Positions 23,069 through 32,536 of a stretch of DNA of 39,865 nucleotides are shown piece by piece. Origin of the DNA: Candidatus Poribacteria bacterium. GTDB lineage: Bacteria > Poribacteria > WGA-4E > WGA-3G. Location of the stretch: positions 1 to 39,865 of the forward strand of contig JAPOZO010000013.1 in NCBI GenBank assembly GCA_026706025.1, in the 5' to 3' direction. Positions within the stretch are counted from its first letter, which is position 1; each line of letters starts with the position of its first letter. The notes under the pieces are model-generated. The model made no database searches. It was not told where the DNA came from and saw only the letters and a list, made by a program, of their open reading frames with translations. The translations under genes and the position numbers were made by a program.

Positions 23069-23125
23069 TGATATTAGGACAATTTTAATAATTTGCGTAT
23101 TTTATAATAAATCGTCCTAATATCA
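23069..23125. repeat. 17-nt inverted repeat with AT-rich loop
   Basis: Arms TGATATTAGGACAATTT (23069-23085) and AAATCGTCCTAATATCA (23109-23125) match at 16 of 17 positions, around a 23-nt AT-rich loop. It may be a small mobile-element remnant (MITE-like) or a protein-binding site. It is about 170 nt upstream of the promoter for the 1132-residue protein. Confidence 0.6.
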
Positions 23126-23293
23126 GTAAATTATACTTTATCCTGATTGATAAGTCAAATTAAATTTGCAGAAAAATTGCTTAACTTGCGAAAAAAACGT
23201 CTATTAAACTCAGAAAGCCATGTAAAATTGCACAACTATGATCTTTTCTATCTGAATATGTATGGCTTTCCACCTCTCTTTTCCCTGAAAAAC

Positions 23294-23323
23294 TTGAATT
23301 AGAGAGATAAACTTTGATATAAT
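23294..23323 (+). promoter_or_regulatory. Sigma-70 promoter of the large unknown gene
   Basis: TTGAAT (23294-23299), 18-nt spacer, TATAAT (23318-23323). The predicted 5' UTR is about 60 nt. The gene then has TAGGAGG 6 nt before its ATG. Confidence 0.6.
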
Positions 23324-23391
23324 ATAGGTTAATAATAGTAGTATTCGTCAGTGCGAGAATAGGTTTTACAATTTAGTTTAGGAGGCTCCCA

Positions 23392-26300
23392 ATGGCGATG
23401 GATTCCCTGAAAAACATTGTTCAGCGCTGTCATCAACGGCATGAAAAGCCTCTTCGACAACGCAAGACAGTGGCAACACCGGCAATGTATACAAAGGATC
23501 ATCCGCGCCAGTACACAGTTTACTGTGCGCACCGCTACCCTGTCATGCTTCATGACCTGGAGCAAGCCGATATCTCAATCATGCCTATGGGACACGCCCC
23601 TTGGCATGATCGGGGCCCTGGAGATTTTAAGGGCAAGCGATTCTTGAAACGCCAAGGCATAACGGATTGGGGCATTAAACGATGGGATGCCTCGTGGGGT
23701 ATTCAACTGTATACAGGCGTTCCTTCGGAACGCAATGGGGCGCGATGGCACGATCTGCACTTCAAGTATGAGGTGATCTGTGCTGCACCAGAGGCCGTTG
23801 TCGCTTGTATTGAGGCACTCGTCAATATTGTTAACAACCCGCTTCTAACATTAGGAAAATCCGGTGGACTCCGCTTCTCCTGTAGAGTCCAGGATTATCT
23901 CCACCCGAATACCGAAGCAGCGAAGTTGTATATCTATAAAGACACTCCGACACCAGAAAATACGTACCAACGCGACGTGTATCTTGAAATATTTGGCGAA
24001 AAAGGGCACACACGCTGGGATGCACGCTATGAGATTCTGATTGGTGACCTATTAGCCCCACCGGTCGTTGCCAAAGAAGTCCTATTCGCGCCTATTGATG
24101 CCCTCCGTGCGAAACTTCATGACCCTGCCCCTGATGACACAGAAGCGAAACAGATTGTCAGCCGTGTGCCGCTATCGCTCGGTTCAGAGCACCTTGATCT
24201 TGCCAGAGAGGCGTTCTTGCGGTGTGGATTTTCTTATGTCCGACAAGAAGATGGTCTTTACTACTGGACGCAACCTGAAAGCGATGTTGGCAGTGAAGAC
24301 GCATTACTATCAGAAAGAGATGGTGTCGTATGGGTCCGCGCATTTACACCTGACATAGGGCTGCCGACGCAATCTACGCCAATCACAGATGTTTGGGACG
24401 ATACAGGTATTCCGTCCCCGATAGATGCTACAAGCACCCCTACCCCCGTGAAAGTGAAGCAGGTACGCGAAGATGAACTCAGCCCGCTGGCGATCAAACG
24501 TCCCCCGCCGGTATTAGGACAACATGATAACACCGAAAACGATGAAATACTCCAAAGGGATGTGTTTCAGATAGAAAGCATTTTCGACCGCGGCGTACGT
24601 ATTCTTGGCGTTATTACAGGGACAGGTCCATGGGACAAACAGTCAGAAGACTCGTATTTCCTCAGTGGCGGCGTAATTTCCGTCAATACGCCGGAGGCTA
24701 AATTCGCAGAAAGCGCGGAAAAATACTTTCGAGAGCAGAATATGCCATCGGTGGTTTACTGGAAACCTCGAACACACCTCTGGCAAGAAGTAAAAGATAT
24801 CCCTATTGAGGCGCGTATAAAAACACCCTTTCAACGCGGAAATGTCTGTGAAGACTCAGAACGGTGCACCGCGCTTGAGGAAAAGGGCGGGAACCCCAAT
24901 GAAAGTATCTGTCCACAGTGCCCCGTCTATGCCGAATGTCAGCAGCGTGGATACTTATCCCAATTTGCTGCATTACAACAAGCAAAAGTACAAATGTTAA
25001 CGATCCCGCAACTGTTTTTTGATCCCCAATATACCGAATTGGTAGAACAGATTCTCAAACCAGAAGGTGAAACCGAACGACTTTGTGTTCTCAACCAAGA
25101 GCGCACACATAAGTTATTCCTCGAATGTAAACTCTCAAAAAACACTATGGAGGAATGGGCTACTCACTGGCAGGGTTGTGCCTTAGGGAACTTCGCCAAA
25201 ACATTGCTGAGTGCTTTGGAAATTAAGGGCAAACTTTACGGCGATGCCGTCAAAGGTGTGCGCGCGGTGATGCAGACCTTTGAGTGGCAAGAGGAAACAC
25301 TTATCCAGCAGATGTGTCAAGTTAGAGTGCGTGGCAGAGCAGTAGCACATCGGATCGTTGACGCTGATACCGGAAAACCATTGGCACGCTTTAGCATCGA
25401 GTTTGAAGGTGGTGCCTCCGCCTACATCCCCTTAGACAGTAACGCCGCAGACAAACTCAGGGCAAAAGGACTCAGCGTCTTTCCGCAATCTGTTCCACTT
25501 AATGAAGACCTGAAAGTTGTGATGCCGATGACGCAAGCGATTGCGTTAGGTATTTTGGATACGGAAACTGTAGAAAGCATTCAAGCGTTTCCAACCGTCT
25601 GTCGGGAGCAAAACTGGACATTTTGGCACCAACTCAAGCGTTTCTTCGCGCATTACACGCGAGACACAGATGCACCGATCCGCTGGGATGGTGAAGTTCT
25701 GCGGTTTTGGGTGCCACCTGTGCTCCACGCAAGCGTCAAACGTCTTTTGTTGGTATCCTCCGTATTCTCAGAGCAACATCTTCACAGAGTGTTCCCCGAT
25801 GAAAACCTTGAGTCCTACTGGACTGACCCCATACCATGGAGTCCAGGGAACCGAGTTTTTCAGATACGCACAGGCGTCTACCCATCAGAAACCATCCTCG
25901 ACTACCACAACTGGAGTAATGTAGGTGTCTCCGAAACAGGACGACGTTTTCTTCGCGGGATCCACGCCGAACTTGAGGCGGATTTGGACGTTAAACACGG
26001 AATTGTAACCAATAAAGATATTGCCAGACGCTTGGACGACATCGCAAAGAAAAGGAACGTCTCCTTCGTAGATGATTTCGAAAAGATGAGCATGTCAGAC
26101 ACGCTTTCTGAAGCAGCAGATGTCGTTTGGGTCGTTGGAACACCGCGACGACCGACGATGGCTATTTGGCAGCGCGCCCAGATGTTATTTGGGAACGATG
26201 AAAAACCGCTCTCTTACGAAGACGAAATAGAGTCGGGAACCTACAAAGACCTACGGCTCCAAAGTATTTACGAAGAAGAGGCTGTTTATGCCCTCACAGA

Positions 26301-26790
26301 GGTTATTGTGCAGGCTGAGTTGGATCGATTGACGGATAGACGGATTGTGTTGATTACCGGATTGCCACTTCCGAACATTACCGATAGACCTGAAACTTCC
26401 ATCTTTGACTGGGAAGATTTTGAGATTGCCGGTGGATTAGATAAACTCCCTGAGGCGATAGCGATACGCGAACGCTTTGAACAGGAGCGTGAGAATCTAA
26501 CGGCTGAGTCCAGTCGCGAAGAAGTTCAACGGGTCTTAGGTTGCTCCGAAAGACAGGCGAACCGCGTGTTGCAAAGACTTAGAGGCGGGAATATCCCACG
26601 TGTCCCTTTCCGTCAGCAAATTCTTTCCCTTCTTACTGATGGCGAGAAAAAAACAGCCGAACTGACTTCAGCCATTGACGGACATCCAGAGGCAATACAA
26701 CATGAACTCACCCGTCTTGTGGAGACTGGGGAGATTGTCAGGATTCGCCGAGGTGTATATGCCTTACCGGTTAAAGATGGCAAACGATAA
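23392..26790 (+). CDS. Large protein of unknown function resembling a degenerate Fe-S helicase/replication protein
   Basis: Not recognised with confidence. The 1132-residue protein has no signal or TM segment. Around residues 486-516 there are five Cys in the pattern C-x5-C-x14-C-x2-C-x5-C (C486, C492, C507, C510, C516), ending CPQCPVYAECQQRGYLSQ, like an iron-sulfur or zinc cluster of helicase-related mobile-element proteins. Upstream, GVITGTGPWDKQSED (near 406) sits where a Walker A should be but lacks GKT. Downstream LCVLNQERT (near 564) sits where a DExx box would be, but reads NQER. The region 909-1010 (VVWVVGTPRRP, LFGNDEKPLSYEDE, RLQSIYEEEAV, ITDRPET) has the feel of a helicase C-terminal half without the QxxGRxxR finger. 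Two winged-helix-like segments end the protein (about 1040-1125). It is therefore possibly an inactive helicase relative with DNA-binding ends. The N-terminal third, with KSGGLRFSCRV and LEIFGEKGHTRWDARYEI, could be primase-like, but this is weak. Confidence 0.4.
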   Translation: MAMDSLKNIVQRCHQRHEKPLRQRKTVATPAMYTKDHPRQYTVYCAHRYPVMLHDLEQADISIMPMGHAPWHDRGPGDFKGKRFLKRQGITDWGIKRWDASWGIQLYTGVPSERNGARWHDLHFKYEVICAAPEAVVACIEALVNIVNNPLLTLGKSGGLRFSCRVQDYLHPNTEAAKLYIYKDTPTPENTYQRDVYLEIFGEKGHTRWDARYEILIGDLLAPPVVAKEVLFAPIDALRAKLHDPAPDDTEAKQIVSRVPLSLGSEHLDLAREAFLRCGFSYVRQEDGLYYWTQPESDVGSEDALLSERDGVVWVRAFTPDIGLPTQSTPITDVWDDTGIPSPIDATSTPTPVKVKQVREDELSPLAIKRPPPVLGQHDNTENDEILQRDVFQIESIFDRGVRILGVITGTGPWDKQSEDSYFLSGGVISVNTPEAKFAESAEKYFREQNMPSVVYWKPRTHLWQEVKDIPIEARIKTPFQRGNVCEDSERCTALEEKGGNPNESICPQCPVYAECQQRGYLSQFAALQQAKVQMLTIPQLFFDPQYTELVEQILKPEGETERLCVLNQERTHKLFLECKLSKNTMEEWATHWQGCALGNFAKTLLSALEIKGKLYGDAVKGVRAVMQTFEWQEETLIQQMCQVRVRGRAVAHRIVDADTGKPLARFSIEFEGGASAYIPLDSNAADKLRAKGLSVFPQSVPLNEDLKVVMPMTQAIALGILDTETVESIQAFPTVCREQNWTFWHQLKRFFAHYTRDTDAPIRWDGEVLRFWVPPVLHASVKRLLLVSSVFSEQHLHRVFPDENLESYWTDPIPWSPGNRVFQIRTGVYPSETILDYHNWSNVGVSETGRRFLRGIHAELEADLDVKHGIVTNKDIARRLDDIAKKRNVSFVDDFEKMSMSDTLSEAADVVWVVGTPRRPTMAIWQRAQMLFGNDEKPLSYEDEIESGTYKDLRLQSIYEEEAVYALTEVIVQAELDRLTDRRIVLITGLPLPNITDRPETSIFDWEDFEIAGGLDKLPEAIAIRERFEQERENLTAESSREEVQRVLGCSERQANRVLQRLRGGNIPRVPFRQQILSLLTDGEKKTAELTSAIDGHPEAIQHELTRLVETGEIVRIRRGVYALPVKDGKR

Positions 26791-26909
26791 GTAGAAGATC
26801 GTCAGCGTAGATTGGGTAAGCGAAAAATAAGAACTCAAACCGATCCACTTCAAGAACTCCGAAATCTCCAAAAAACTTGACCCCTTAAAACCACCATGAT
26901 AGCAACTCC

Positions 26910-26999
26910 GCAGAGGCAGACATCCGTAGGGAACTCATCCGCTACCGTTACATCAAAGGCATCACCGGGCTACCCGCAAATTTGTTAAGTTTTCGCTAA
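26910..26999 (+). pseudogene. Fragment of type I restriction methylase subunit (HsdM)
   Basis: A frame at 26910-26987 translates as AEADIRRELIRYRYIKGI followed by TGLPANLL, then stop at 26997-26999. The block IRxxLIxxxxIxGIxGLPANLF is characteristic of HsdM and related N6-adenine methylases, just before the FYGTGIPA segment. Here it ends after ANL. Upstream the frame is interrupted by a stop at 26886-26888, and no start or ribosome-binding site is seen, so this is a degraded remnant of about 30 codons. It shows that a restriction-modification locus once lay here. Confidence 0.6.
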
Positions 27000-27170: not shown

Positions 27171-30137
27171 ATGAAAAACGAAGATGTTGACCTGATTCAT
27201 CGCATCTTGGCAGGTGATGAGGCTGCGTTCACGACTCTGGTGGAAAGGCACCGGAAGTGGATTCATTCACTCGCATGGCGTGAGATTGGTGATTTCCACG
27301 CGGCACAAGAAATCACACAAGACACCTTCATTCAAGCTCTTAAATCGCTGCCTACCTTGAGGGATCCCAACCGTTTTTTGGGATGGCTATATGTGATAGC
27401 AAAGCGTCAGTGCATTGAGTGGCTGCGGCGAAAGCCGATTACGATGCAGTCCTTAGATACAATGCCTAAAGCTGAGTTAGAAACGGTATCCTATACGAAA
27501 TATCTTGACGAAAAACAGACGCAAGCGTCAGCAGATGGGTTACGTGAAGTTGTAGAACGCCTCCTCCGAAAGCTGCCAGAATCTGAACGTTCTGTGATGG
27601 TCCTGCACTATTTCAACGGCTTAACCTGTGAAGAAGTGAGTGAGCGTTTGGATGTATCTTTGAACACAGTAAAAAGTCGGCTATATCGGGCGCGGAAGCG
27701 ACTGGAGCAGGAGGAGTCGATGCTGCGAGAAAACTTGGGTCCAAATTTATTTAAAAATGAACCGCGATACATTAGTATCCAAGCGAACGCGACAACAGAA
27801 AGCGGAGAACACTTGGCAGAAGGCGGTTTTGAACTCACGCAAACTGATAAGGTTTTCACGTCTACCGGCTCCCGCACGATGGGGCTCCATGGCGACTACC
27901 CACTGCCAATGTATATGTTGCTGCACTATATTATCCACCCTAATGCGATAGATCTCTTTAAATTTCCTTTGGGTATTGGGAATCGTTGGGAGCCGGAGGG
28001 TCCTCATAAATCTAAAGCAATGATAACTTTGGAAGCGCATGAAACAGTCAAGGTCTCAGCAGGAACCTTTCCATCGTGCCTGAAGCATATAACTGTGTTC
28101 ACAGACGCTGACGTAGAAGAACCCGACGCTGAAGAGGGAAACGCATACCTAAACGGCACGCGCTATCTGTGGTTCGCTAAAGGCGTTGGACTCGTGAAGA
28201 TGCGTTATGAGCATTCTAATGGTGTCATTACAGAAGCAGAATTACTTGAATATGAAACACCCCTTGCGGATGAAGAATATTTCCCATCCCAAATAGGCAC
28301 GCAGTGGACATACAAATGGCACAACGATTATAACGACGCGGCGATTATTGAAAGTTGGCACGTCACCAGGAATTTTAGTCACCCCAAAAATCTTGATAAC
28401 CCCTTGGCACTTGCCTCGGCGAGATATGAGGTGAAAATAAGTGACGATGAACCGCGGGTCGCACATGTCAAGTGTGTCCTAACACCAAAAGCAGATAGGG
28501 GTCCGAAAGGGGACCGAAAGTCGTTGCTCTTGTCCATGACTCGTTTTGGAACAGAATGGTTGTACGATGGATATGCCCGGTATCTTCAAGATTTAACGGT
28601 TACCGATGTAAACGGTGAAACATTACTAATAGAGGAAATTGGTAAAACACAATGGGTTGTCGAGGTAGAAAGCACATCACCTTTAACCCTGCAATACAAA
28701 GTGTTAATAAATCACGATGAGCGGGATTGGCCCTTTGGGCGGAATGAGGCACCATACGTCCAAGAGGATTGCATTTTCTTGCCGGGATATGCGCTGTTTA
28801 TCGTCGGTGAAGTCAAGGATCTTCAACTAAAAGTCGACGTGCCGGATAACTGGCATGTCTCAACACCTTGGGAGCAGATTGCGTCGGATGAACATCATTT
28901 CGTATGTGAGGATCAGGACGACCTGATGTTCGCGTATCTCGTGCTTGGTGAATACAGTAAACGTGTGGCAAAATTGGGAGAGGCAGAGGTCGTGATTGCA
29001 ACCGGCGGACGTTTTAAAGCATCTATTGATGAGGTCCAACCTACCATCGAGTCCCTCCTGCACGGGTATTCAGATGTATTTGATGCTACCCCAACAGGTA
29101 AGATACTTTTTGTTGCCAACCCGTATGGCGAAAAAGGATATCCCGGTGGTGGGGCATCTGGACGCAGCATCAGCGTGCACGTCGGCGGCGAGTTAGATAA
29201 AGCGAGCAGACGTTTTTGGTTACCGCTTGTCGGATACATGGTTTCCTCTCTCTGGGTTGGGACTCAGGCTATCAATTTTAGAGGACAAGAATATTGGTTT
29301 AGCGCGGGTTTCACGGGATATTATTCAGATATTGTCTCTGTCCGCCTTGGATTTACTTCTGAAAGCGATTTTCTCAGAAGTTTTGAACGCGGGTGGGAAT
29401 CGTATCTATCTCGACAGGGTGAACTTTCTATTCGCGAGGCAGGGGAAGACAAATCCGCCAACCGAGAACTTGTCTATGACGGCGGCAGTTTAATCGCTGC
29501 GGCTTTGGACTTGCAAATTCGCACACTTACACAAAACCGAAGCAGCTTGGACGATGTGATGAAGCAGATGTATCGGGAATTCGGTCTTACCGACGTTACC
29601 TATACGATAAACGATGTCATCAGGATCGTTAGTCAGATTGCAGGTAAAGATTTTAAACCCTTCTTCAGCAAATATGTGCAAAGGACAGAGCGACTGCCAT
29701 TAGAGCAATATCTTAAAGCGGCAGGTATGAATACCGAGATAGCCTTTGGCGAGAGACTTCCGAGTCTCAATTATATCCTTTTTGAGATGCTTCAAATCAA
29801 ATCGCTTGGCGGTCCAACAGGACGAGGTATGTTCATCCATCATTCATCACAGTATCAGGATGACGACGAATTGATAGGCATCAACGGCACACCGGTGAAA
29901 ACATTTGACGACATCAGAGAGGTTGCCAAAGATTGGAAATCCGGTGATGCCGTAGCCTTAACCCTTAAAAGGGAAGGCAAAGAAATTATCCTGCCCATCA
30001 CACTATCAGGTGACACCTCGAAAAAACCACCACTGGAACCAGGACCCCTTGATGTTACTATCACGAAAAATATGGATAGCACAGACCTACAACGCGCCAT
30101 CTGGTCGAGTATTGTGGGCGATAAAGGAGGAAATTGA
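27171..30137 (+). CDS. ECF sigma factor fused to DUF3108-like domains, a degenerate M61-type peptidase and PDZ
   Basis: The 988-residue protein starts at ATG 27171 with TGGAGG 5 nt upstream. Residues 1-190 are an ECF sigma factor: region 2 (EITQDTFIQALKSLPTLRD, RFLGWLYVIAKRQCIEWLRR) and region 4 (LPESERSVMVLHYFNGLTCEEVSERLDVSLNTVKSRLYRARKRL). Next come one or two DUF3108-like domains (VSAGTFPSCLKH, RYLWFAKGVGLVKMRYEH), then a peptidase M61-like region and a C-terminal PDZ domain (GTPVKTFDDIREV). The zinc motif is lost: residues 689-693 read YMVSS where the neighbour has HEICH, and AGFTGY (A712) replaces EGFTEY. No signal or TM segment is seen, so the whole chain appears cytoplasmic. The stop overlaps the next gene's start. 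It probably regulates the cluster and uses the former peptidase as a ligand- or peptide-sensing domain. Confidence 0.85.
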   Translation: MKNEDVDLIHRILAGDEAAFTTLVERHRKWIHSLAWREIGDFHAAQEITQDTFIQALKSLPTLRDPNRFLGWLYVIAKRQCIEWLRRKPITMQSLDTMPKAELETVSYTKYLDEKQTQASADGLREVVERLLRKLPESERSVMVLHYFNGLTCEEVSERLDVSLNTVKSRLYRARKRLEQEESMLRENLGPNLFKNEPRYISIQANATTESGEHLAEGGFELTQTDKVFTSTGSRTMGLHGDYPLPMYMLLHYIIHPNAIDLFKFPLGIGNRWEPEGPHKSKAMITLEAHETVKVSAGTFPSCLKHITVFTDADVEEPDAEEGNAYLNGTRYLWFAKGVGLVKMRYEHSNGVITEAELLEYETPLADEEYFPSQIGTQWTYKWHNDYNDAAIIESWHVTRNFSHPKNLDNPLALASARYEVKISDDEPRVAHVKCVLTPKADRGPKGDRKSLLLSMTRFGTEWLYDGYARYLQDLTVTDVNGETLLIEEIGKTQWVVEVESTSPLTLQYKVLINHDERDWPFGRNEAPYVQEDCIFLPGYALFIVGEVKDLQLKVDVPDNWHVSTPWEQIASDEHHFVCEDQDDLMFAYLVLGEYSKRVAKLGEAEVVIATGGRFKASIDEVQPTIESLLHGYSDVFDATPTGKILFVANPYGEKGYPGGGASGRSISVHVGGELDKASRRFWLPLVGYMVSSLWVGTQAINFRGQEYWFSAGFTGYYSDIVSVRLGFTSESDFLRSFERGWESYLSRQGELSIREAGEDKSANRELVYDGGSLIAAALDLQIRTLTQNRSSLDDVMKQMYREFGLTDVTYTINDVIRIVSQIAGKDFKPFFSKYVQRTERLPLEQYLKAAGMNTEIAFGERLPSLNYILFEMLQIKSLGGPTGRGMFIHHSSQYQDDDELIGINGTPVKTFDDIREVAKDWKSGDAVALTLKREGKEIILPITLSGDTSKKPPLEPGPLDVTITKNMDSTDLQRAIWSSIVGDKGGN

Positions 30138-32536
30138 TGAAAAAAACAGATAAATCCGAACGCAACATTGTTTTAAGTGCCAGTGCTGCTACAGAAAGCG
30201 GGAATCATTTGGCAGAAGGGAATTTCACCCTTAAGAAGACCGATAGGGCTTTGACATCCATCGACTACGGTACAGCAGGACACGGTAGTGGTGATCCATC
30301 GCCGAGGTATATGTTGCTATACTACATGAGCCACTATGAAATCGACCTCTTCAAATTTCCGCTGGATATCGGGCAAACTTGGAAAGAAAAAGGGCACTGG
30401 CGTATGCAGACGAAAAGTAGTTTGGAGGGTTATGAACCTGTAGAAGTCTCAGCAGGCACGTTCTCGAACTGCCTAAAGCATAAAACTTTCTTCACTGACG
30501 CTGATGTACAGGATACGAAGGCTGAGCTGCGAAACGCGCTTTTGAACGGCACCCGTTATCTATGGTTTGCCGAGGGTGTTGGCCTTGTTAAATTGAGATA
30601 TGAACATTCCAACGGGGTCGTTACAGAAGCCGAATTGCTTGAATACAAGATTCCTGTTGAAGACCAAGAATACCTCCCTTTGCAAATTGGCAATGTATGG
30701 ACCTATAAATGGCAAAACGATTATCGGGACGAGGCTGCCATTGAAGAGTGGCGCGTCATCCGAAATTTTAGTGAACCTGAGAATCTTGATACTCCGATGG
30801 AACTTGCATCGGCGAGATATGAGGTTAAAATAGATGCCAATGAACGGCGCGTGGCAAATGTTGCGTGTGTACTAACGCCGAAGACAGACAATCGTGCTAA
30901 AACGGGCCGAAAGCCGTTGCTCTTATCTATGAGCCACTTTGGTACTGATGGTATGTACGATGGATATGGTAGGTATCTCCGAGATCTAACGGCTACCGGG
31001 TCTAAGGGAAAAAAGATACCAGTCACAGAGATTGGAAAAACGCAATGGATGGTTGAAGTCGAGAATGATTTACCTGTGACGTTGCGTTACAAAGTGTTGC
31101 TGAATCATGATGAACGGGAGTGGGCATTCGGTAGGGATGAAGCACCGTACGTTCAAGAAGACTGTATGTTCTGTCCCGGATATGCGCTGTTTATCGTCGG
31201 TGAAGTGGTGGATATTGAACTGCGTGTTGATGTTCCAGATGACTGGCACGTCTCGACCCCTTGGAATCGTATTGGAAACGAAAGGTATCGTTTTGCTATA
31301 ACAGACCAAAACGATTTGATGTATGCGTATCTTGTGCTTGGAAAGCATTCCGAGAGAATGGCGGAATCTGAAGGGACAGAGGTGCTGCTCGCTTTGGGTG
31401 GACACTTCAAAGCATCTATGGATGAAGTTCAAAGAACAGTTAAATCACTTCTGCATACATATTCGGGAATTTTCGGCGGTACCCCAAAGGATCGTATGTT
31501 GTTTGTGGCGAATCCTTGTGATATATACAGCGGGGGCGGCGTATCTGGTCGCAGCATCAGCGTTCTGATGGACGGAACATTAGATACAGGCAACAGACAA
31601 TCATGGACACCGCTCGTAGCACATGAAATTTGCCATATCTGGAATGGAAAAGCTATCAATTTTAGTGAACAGGAATACTGGTTTAGCGAAGGGTTCACCG
31701 AGTACGCTTCAAAAATTAGCTGCGTGCGTCTTAGCGTAATTTCTGAAGAGGAGTTTCTCAAGGACCTTGAACGCAAGTGCGAATTGTATCTGTCTAAACA
31801 GGGTGAACTCTCTATCCGAGAGGCAGGCGAAAACAAGATGCCGAACAGAGGACTTGTCTATGACGGTGGAAGCCTAATTGCTGCTGCTTTGGACTTGCAA
31901 ATCCGCAAGCACACACAAAACCGGAACAGTTTAGACGATGTAATGAAGCAGATGTATCGGGAATTTGGACTCACCAGAAATGAATACACAATGAATGATG
32001 TCATCAGAATTGTCAGCCAAATTGCAGATGAAGATCTTGAATTGTTCTTCAAAAAGTATGTTTCAGGAACGGAACGTTTGCCGCTGGCGGAATATTTCAC
32101 GAATGCGGGTATCGATGTCGAGATAGCATTTGGCGAAAAACTTCCGAGCCTTGGATACATTCTTTTTCAGATGCTTCAAATCAAGTCAATCGGTGGTTCA
32201 ACAGGAGGGGGCATGTTCATCCACCAATCCCCGCAGTATCAGGATGATGACAACTTGATAGGCATCAACGGCACACCGGTGAAATTTTTTGATGACATCA
32301 GAAAAGTTGCCAAAGATTGGAAACCTGGTGATGTCGTTGAGCTAACCGTTGAACGAGAGGGTGAAAATGTCACCCTACCTATCACATTAGGGGGAGATCC
32401 ATCTGAAAATCCGCCATTGGAACCGGGGCCTATTGACGTTACCATCACGAAAAAAACGGATAGCACGGAGCCGCAACGCGCCATCTGGTCGGGAATGTTA
32501 GGCAAAGGAAACTGTTCTCAAGTTGAAACACTATAG
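30137..32536 (+). CDS. M61-type zinc aminopeptidase-like protein with DUF3108-like and PDZ domains (intact paralog)
   Basis: The 799-residue protein is a tandem paralog of residues 190-988 of the preceding gene, but without the sigma part. Its start ATG overlaps the preceding TGA (TGATG), with AAAGGAGG 6 nt upstream, so translation is coupled. The DUF3108-like region is at about 10-290 (VSAGTFSNCLKH, RYLWFAEGVGLVKLRYEH). The M61-like peptidase has intact HEICH (H496, E497, H500) with W502 in HIWN, and Glu 518 in EGFTEY as third zinc ligand. A PDZ domain follows (IGINGTPVKFFDDI). M61 glycyl aminopeptidases cleave N-terminal Gly. There is no signal peptide, so it may act in the cytoplasm. The nucleotide identity to the upstream copy is high across the 3' half, indicating recent duplication. 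Confidence 0.8.
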   Translation: MKKTDKSERNIVLSASAATESGNHLAEGNFTLKKTDRALTSIDYGTAGHGSGDPSPRYMLLYYMSHYEIDLFKFPLDIGQTWKEKGHWRMQTKSSLEGYEPVEVSAGTFSNCLKHKTFFTDADVQDTKAELRNALLNGTRYLWFAEGVGLVKLRYEHSNGVVTEAELLEYKIPVEDQEYLPLQIGNVWTYKWQNDYRDEAAIEEWRVIRNFSEPENLDTPMELASARYEVKIDANERRVANVACVLTPKTDNRAKTGRKPLLLSMSHFGTDGMYDGYGRYLRDLTATGSKGKKIPVTEIGKTQWMVEVENDLPVTLRYKVLLNHDEREWAFGRDEAPYVQEDCMFCPGYALFIVGEVVDIELRVDVPDDWHVSTPWNRIGNERYRFAITDQNDLMYAYLVLGKHSERMAESEGTEVLLALGGHFKASMDEVQRTVKSLLHTYSGIFGGTPKDRMLFVANPCDIYSGGGVSGRSISVLMDGTLDTGNRQSWTPLVAHEICHIWNGKAINFSEQEYWFSEGFTEYASKISCVRLSVISEEEFLKDLERKCELYLSKQGELSIREAGENKMPNRGLVYDGGSLIAAALDLQIRKHTQNRNSLDDVMKQMYREFGLTRNEYTMNDVIRIVSQIADEDLELFFKKYVSGTERLPLAEYFTNAGIDVEIAFGEKLPSLGYILFQMLQIKSIGGSTGGGMFIHQSPQYQDDDNLIGINGTPVKFFDDIRKVAKDWKPGDVVELTVEREGENVTLPITLGGDPSENPPLEPGPIDVTITKKTDSTEPQRAIWSGMLGKGNCSQVETL

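Follow-up and report, generated by a model that had tools for sequence, protein, structure and literature searches.

A probably domesticated primase–helicase protein with degenerate ATPase motifs in a multicopy family of Candidatus Poribacteria

The gene and its domains

The window analysed here is a stretch of 39,865 nucleotides from a sponge-associated Candidatus Poribacteria bacterium (assembly GCA_026706025.1, contig JAPOZO010000013.1, positions 1 to 39,865 of the forward strand). On its plus strand, positions 23392-26790 hold an open, uninterrupted reading frame of 1132 codons and a stop, with full-length relatives of 45-95% identity in dozens of genomes. We read its product as a primase–helicase that descends from a plasmid-like integrative element, has lost its ATPase and now serves its host as an ATP-independent DNA-binding protein, a reading to which we assign a probability of roughly 0.6. 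The coordinates of all features are collected in Table 1.

The AlphaFold2 model of the protein was built with 57 sequences, the window protein and its homologs, and reached a mean predicted local distance difference test score (pLDDT) of 77 and a predicted template modelling score of 0.70. Residues 1-340 were modelled separately (pLDDT 76). For the full model, the best Foldseek match in the PDB is XPD (9p55, E 1.2e-9), and VIA-align recognises the two RecA domains of the XPD/DinG fold in residues 388-1026 (XPD Z 14.6, DinG Z 11.5). In a viral library, the full model matched the bifunctional primase/polymerase R9ZWI1 (E 1.4e-7) and DinG/Rad3 helicases. Plain Foldseek of the N-terminal model against the PDB gave nothing significant, the best match being LigD PolDom at E 0.1, and the PrimPol matches emerged only through VIA re-ranking. 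After this step, residues 42-243 resemble the PrimPol domain of pRN1 ORF904 (Z 10.1, root-mean-square deviation 3.3, 170 residues), followed by NrS-1 PrimPol (Z 7.2) and further rows at Z 5, which identifies the fold of the archaeo-eukaryotic primases (AEP/PrimPol). Taken together, the fold matches give the domain order PrimPol, small α/β domain, XPD/DinG-like helicase with a cysteine cluster, helix-turn-helix (HTH) and winged helix.

Sequence searches see little of this architecture. The sole Pfam match is the C-terminal winged helix AbiEi_4 (PF13338, residues 1101-1126, E 5.9e-7, above the cut-off). Comparison with PDB sequences, PHROGs and NCBIfam returned only HTH-type or chance matches, and PADLOC a winged-helix fragment only. 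Lacking any Pfam domain except this terminal one, the family is invisible to standard annotation, and no paper describing it was found in the literature searched.

Table 1. Features of the gene, its product and its upstream region (aa, amino acids; SF2, superfamily 2)
Feature	Position	Strand	Basis or remark
Probably domesticated, predicted ATPase-dead PrimPol–helicase protein, 1132 aa + stop	23392..26790	+	Open reading frame, family, dN/dS 0.11-0.17
PrimPol (archaeo-eukaryotic primase) domain, residues 42-243	23515..24120	+	pRN1 ORF904 Z 10.1; 41% identity to L125 N-terminal domain
Small α/β domain, residues 264-340	24181..24411	+	Models; weak KA1-like matches, Z 5
XPD/DinG-like SF2 helicase core, residues 388-1026	24553..26469	+	Foldseek E 1.2e-9 (XPD); VIA Z 14.6
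Degenerate motif I (Walker A) TGTGPWDK, residues 409-416	24616..24639	+	Aligned to GKT/GKS of relatives
Five-cysteine cluster, residues 486-516, probable Fe–S (or Zn) site	24847..24939	+	Family conservation, intact helicases, strong constraint
Degenerate motif II LCVLNQER, residues 564-571	25081..25104	+	Aligned to LCIIDEA / LAIDEPN of relatives
Degenerate motif III SSV, residues 789-791	25756..25764	+	SAT in some paralogs
Degenerate motif VI EVIVQAELDR, residues 970-979	26299..26328	+	IIGRxGLNR in motif-intact paralogs
Helix-turn-helix, residues 1041-1063	26512..26580	+	Model; 71% mean identity over 1035-1066, 57 members
AbiEi-like winged helix, residues 1068-1128	26593..26775	+	PF13338 E 5.9e-7; ZBP1 winged helix Z 10.0
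Sigma70-like promoter TTGAAT-18-TATAAT, TG extension	23294..23323	+	Kept in orthologs; 3′ of AT-rich spacer
Ribosome-binding site AGGAGG	23380..23385	+	Read from sequence; kept in orthologs
Inverted repeat, 17-nt arms 23069-23085 / 23109-23125	23069..23125	.	Kept in eight genomes of the genus
Divergent promoter TTGACT-17-TATAAT, would start at the inverted repeat	23130..23158	-	Conserved

Cysteine cluster and catalytic sites

The cluster comprises C486, C492, C507, C510 and C516. Of the 48 aligned family members in which the segment is present, 46 keep these residues, as do the related intact helicases. The cluster sits between motif I and motif II, the place of the iron–sulfur insert of XPD and DinG, and it is probably an iron–sulfur (or zinc) site, as predicted from these patterns.

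The helicase motifs around the cluster are degenerate. Neither the GKT/S of Walker A nor the DExx of motif II is present in the window protein. Motif VI reads QAILRLRQ in the element-borne relatives described below, and its arginine region is not found in the window protein. For the primase site, we used the AEP motif definitions hhhDhD/E (motif I), sxH (motif II) and hD/E (motif III) (PMC5862659). At motif I the window protein reads D121-L-H123, with histidine at a second place that holds D or E in 38 of 57 aligned members. The sxH of motif II is missing as well: the residue is R161, an arginine in all 57 members and also in the element proteins L124 and L125. Only motif III, assigned by alignment alone, conforms, with E199 kept in 51 members. 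Over the primase site as a whole, one metal ligand has been lost. From these residues, the protein would be expected neither to hydrolyze ATP nor to prime DNA. The intact fold and cysteine cluster, together with the retained D121 and E199, could instead suggest a helicase or primase that is still active and ATP-dependent through non-canonical motifs. We consider this very improbable, however, given that motifs I, II, III and VI are degenerate together, that the protein lacks the Lys and the Asp/Glu on which ATP hydrolysis depends, and that His and Arg occupy the primase positions just described.

Both ATPase motifs (GK[ST] and DE) are kept in eight of the 57 members, one of them in 13 and neither in 36. 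A tree rooted on L124/L125 requires at least four changes for motif I and at least six for motif II; these counts come from a quick method, with one family row and the outgroup long-branched and the states scored on one alignment. The clade of the window protein is fully supported, and motifs I, II, III and VI are degenerate throughout it. The window's own genome also encodes a paralog (G000_L002; G000:C56:136339-139731) with AETGAGKTYA, IIDEAS and IVGRVGLNR, and complete genomes typically show one or two motif-intact copies beside many dead ones.

In other ATPase families, inactive subunits pair with active ones. By analogy, the dead copies might be regulatory subunits that join motif-intact paralogs in a hetero-oligomeric repair or replication machine of the host. 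Intact and dead copies indeed coexist in the window genome and in G010, G021 and G028, sometimes in tandem. However, G005 and G045 have family members of which none carries both motifs, so that a live partner from the family is not obligatory, and we regard such a machine as improbable.

Relatives in plasmid-like elements

The family profile finds a protein of the sister genome G019 (L117/L122) at E 4.1e-9. In this protein, GSAAGTGKTT and ILILDEVNP flank the same five-cysteine pattern, and the primase domain is BT4734-like (E 3.1e-12). As a query, it in turn finds many family members at E 1e-7 to 1e-10. Since the profile and the reverse search agree, the helicase kinship holds in both directions. 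A plan closer to that of the window protein is seen in L125 (genome G054) and L124 (G057), which combine an N-terminal PrimPol domain with DLD or DFD, TPAQTGKTTV and LAIDEPNP. The first 250 residues of L125 share 41% identity with the N-terminal domain of the window protein (E 1.2e-44). A further protein, L126 (G026), resembles these two and has a cut N-terminus.

The surroundings of three such genes are plasmid-like. Two contain Rep_3 initiators (L122 on G019:C61; L170 on G026:C56), and the third a tyrosine integrase and a Dam methylase (L169 on G054:C33). In L122, L169 and L170, an intact primase of PrimPol or BT4734 type is fused to a helicase with the cysteine cluster, and Pfam does not call the helicase. 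Remoter helicases of this kind (L164-L168) are found in other Poribacteria and also beyond the phylum. Phage records held no family match, L125 had no match among phage and plasmid records, and neither relatives of the family nor relatives of the intact element protein were found in viral contigs. Separately, a large helicase-like protein of Poribacteria (L119, G055:C71, a frame of 1363 amino acids) has a similar HTH and winged-helix end (profile E 3.9e-4).

These results bear on an initial annotation of the gene, made from the sequence alone. It had pointed to the five cysteines, which are present and conserved, and to an altered motif I without GKT and a motif II reading NQER, both of which align to the GKT and IDE of intact relatives. 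Its suggestion of an inactive helicase that may still bind DNA agrees with the XPD-like fold, the homologs with GKT/DE and the predicted DNA-binding end domains. The fold search that it proposed found RecA domains with XPD on top, and the proposed survey for intact GKT/DExx homologs found them among element proteins and paralogs, including one in the window genome. Winged helices had been assigned to both ends; the C-terminal one stands as an HTH/winged helix, and the N-terminal end proves to be PrimPol. This primase domain, the multicopy family, the motif-intact paralogs and the link to plasmid-like elements had been missed.

Distribution and copy number

All homologs found belong to Candidatus Poribacteria. 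Members come from only two genera, both of the same Poribacteria family: a search of 85 Poribacteria genomes gave strong matches in 32 of the 38 from the window's genus and in 16 of the 18 from the second, and none elsewhere in the phylum. In the window genome (6.27 Mb, 103 contigs), seven other contigs carry further copies of ~45-60% identity, and a single gene may be split between two of these contigs. Single-contig genomes of the same genus contain 12 (G021), 11 (G028), 9 (G010) and 5 (G005) genes, and that of the second genus (G045) one gene and a broken one.

Members differ in length. Beside the full-length form of ~1130 amino acids there is a form of ~990, which has neither the cysteine segment nor residues ~645-722, and a shortest form of ~790, which lacks residues ~262-551 and 660-740. 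A few members contain stop codons. Short (~790 amino acids), motif-dead and motif-intact members are mixed in tandem arrays of three to four at L062 and L080. Furthermore, one ortholog of the window gene (L043:7001-10228) has an in-frame deletion of residues ~648-703, a segment that is also missing in the short paralogs.

Selection on the protein

The window gene occupies one chromosomal locus, with the same flanks, in nine genomes. Among ten orthologs of 77-95% identity, the ratio of nonsynonymous to synonymous substitution rates (dN/dS) is 0.11-0.17. In most ortholog pairs it is ~0.06-0.10 for the cysteine region and 0.03-0.14 for the HTH region. Other motif-dead pairs (0.17-0.32) do not differ from pairs with both motifs (0.21-0.28). 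A mobile-element origin is likely, and the stop codons of a few members might suggest a functionless, decaying relic of such an element. Strong purifying selection, an intact frame, a conserved promoter and ribosome-binding site and the locus shared by nine genomes leave hardly any room for this view, which the dN/dS values contradict. These values and the stable shared locus also speak against a mobile or defence island, to which the initial annotation had likened the setting of the gene: the flanking genes are ordinary, PADLOC reports nothing beyond the fragment mentioned above, and the proposed HsdM relic (see below) is weak and not conserved.

Conservation is unevenly spread over the protein. 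Among the 57 members, the RecA1 segments with motifs I and II have the lowest mean identity (43-44%). The best conserved parts are the cysteine cluster (76%), the hinge before the HTH (74%), the HTH (71%), PrimPol (66%) and the winged helix (63%). The presumed DNA-facing and metal-cluster parts are thus held by selection and the ATP site is released, which favours ATP-independent DNA binding. Strict selection on a protein that has lost its ATPase parts likewise argues for some other job, probably DNA binding. In addition, few parts are as well conserved across paralogs as the HTH, which argues for a common rather than a divergent target.

Probable function

The likeliest job of the window protein would therefore be ATP-independent DNA binding, as a regulator or a competitor. 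We envisage that an element primase–helicase was duplicated in the host lineage and that the clade of the window protein was then stripped of its ATPase. Positioning on a DNA site, a target that paralogs may share, would fall to the HTH and winged helix. The frame formed by PrimPol and the metal-cluster helicase would act as a clamp on single-stranded or branched DNA, and the clamped protein would regulate transcription or replication at the site.

Competition could also be directed against the elements themselves. The dead copies would then be dominant-negative forms or decoys of the element primase–helicase, which block its origin or form inactive mixed oligomers and thereby protect the host. 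That sister genomes carry intact relatives on Rep_3 or integrase elements, that each genome has many dead copies and that DNA-contacting parts are conserved beside a decaying ATPase would all suit such an interference factor. However, the family is only 21-24% identical to L125 over the whole alignment, and a stable locus with dN/dS of 0.11-0.17 betrays no rapid arms-race change. Moreover, intact elements are rare (four strong helicase matches in 85 genomes), so that a present-day pressure is not evident. We therefore judge interference unlikely, though less so than the hetero-oligomeric machine. On a broader and quite tentative view, slightly ahead of interference in our estimation, the mostly dead, DNA-bound family may act jointly as a host system, be it an origin-blocking defence or a chromosomal regulatory network.

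Several points weigh against a domesticated, ATP-independent DNA-binding protein. DNA binding, the metal cluster and the loss of ATPase are predicted rather than directly evidenced. Descent from element to host would follow from rooting with the element proteins rather than from an independent root. The cysteine segment is missing altogether in 9 of the 57 aligned members and is thus dispensable for some of the family. D121 and E199 persist in the primase site and make residual nucleotide binding possible. Finally, an operator common to the upstream regions of the paralogs was looked for and none was found.

If domestication holds, the family offers a clear case of it, in which element-borne intact relatives, motif-intact paralogs and every state of motif loss can be compared and the dead members are under purifying selection. 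Such a natural series lends itself to two questions: which role a primase–helicase frame can play when ATP is not used, and for what reason a sponge-associated lineage maintains as many as twelve copies.

Surroundings of the gene

The gene has its own promoter after an AT-rich spacer, as had been annotated initially, and this promoter is kept in orthologs (Table 1). Further upstream lies an inverted repeat, directly downstream of the minus-strand promoter TTGACT-17-TATAAT. Its arms show compensatory changes (in L042: TGATGTTGGGACAATTT/AAATTGTCCCAACATCA). The repeat is absent at L044, L050 and other paralogs, being confined to the ortholog group of the window gene, and the window genome has no second copy of the 17-mer within one mismatch. 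We note the repeat as a candidate operator of the gene or, alternatively, as the possible beginning of a small RNA. An Rfam match of the repeat to mir-4922 (30.6 bits against a threshold of 82) was taken as a chance hairpin match.

The flanks of the gene are common to the orthologs of the genus (L039-L043, L045, L046 and, upstream, also L050) in stretches between ~15 and 32 kb; the ortholog of the second genus (L044) is located elsewhere. Neighbouring genes encode an enolase-superfamily enzyme, oxidoreductases, a di-haem oxidoreductase and extracytoplasmic function (ECF)-sigma/M61 proteins. No mobile replication module, with a Rep initiator, integrase or relaxase alongside, is found among these ordinary chromosomal genes. 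The paralogs, too, are surrounded by ordinary chromosomal genes, none of them conserved specifically except within groups of orthologous loci.

Downstream, an HsdM relic had been proposed. A fragment does exist (26892-26996), but it is tiny, at 35 codons, its N6_Mtase match is below threshold (E 0.045) and it is not conserved, the stretch being missing from blastn alignments of several orthologs. Beyond it, in the product of 27171-30134, an ECF sigma factor with regions 2 and 4 is joined to a C-terminal part of the Peptidase M61 type, and 30134-32533 encodes a second M61 protein. Each matches the ortholog of the other at ~70% DNA identity, and the two therefore look like tandem paralogs.

Comparison with known systems

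PrimPol–helicase fusions are known from plasmids and integrated elements (PMC5862659). The window protein shares with them an N-terminal PrimPol, a helicase behind it and a winged helix at the end, and its intact relatives lie beside Rep_3 or integrase genes. In contrast to these fusions, its helicase is XPD/DinG-like with a cysteine cluster, its catalytic residues are lost, and its gene is solitary, chromosomal and multicopy. XPD and DinG, the Rad3-type iron–sulfur helicases of SF2, have the fold of residues 388-1026 and a cysteine cluster between motifs I and II. They differ from the window protein in having four conserved cysteines instead of five, and in the latter motifs I, II, III and VI are degenerate and the helicase is fused to PrimPol and an HTH/winged helix.

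With AbiEi regulators, the protein shares half of the PF13338 winged helix (1101-1126). It has no AbiEi body and no adjacent AbiEii toxin, its immediate neighbours being the di-haem oxidoreductase and an ECF sigma/M61 protein. The plan of a primase joined to an SF2-like helicase also recurs in fusions of phages and plasmids that resemble the origin-binding herpes protein UL9 (the All3500 family; PMC5862659), whereas the helicase of the window protein matches XPD best and has a cysteine cluster. Since the catalytic residues that define primases and helicases are not in place, the protein is best filed as a derived inactive relative, neither primase nor helicase. Its descent makes it a domesticated variant of the primase–helicase fusions of mobile elements, with a helicase of the XPD/DinG kind.

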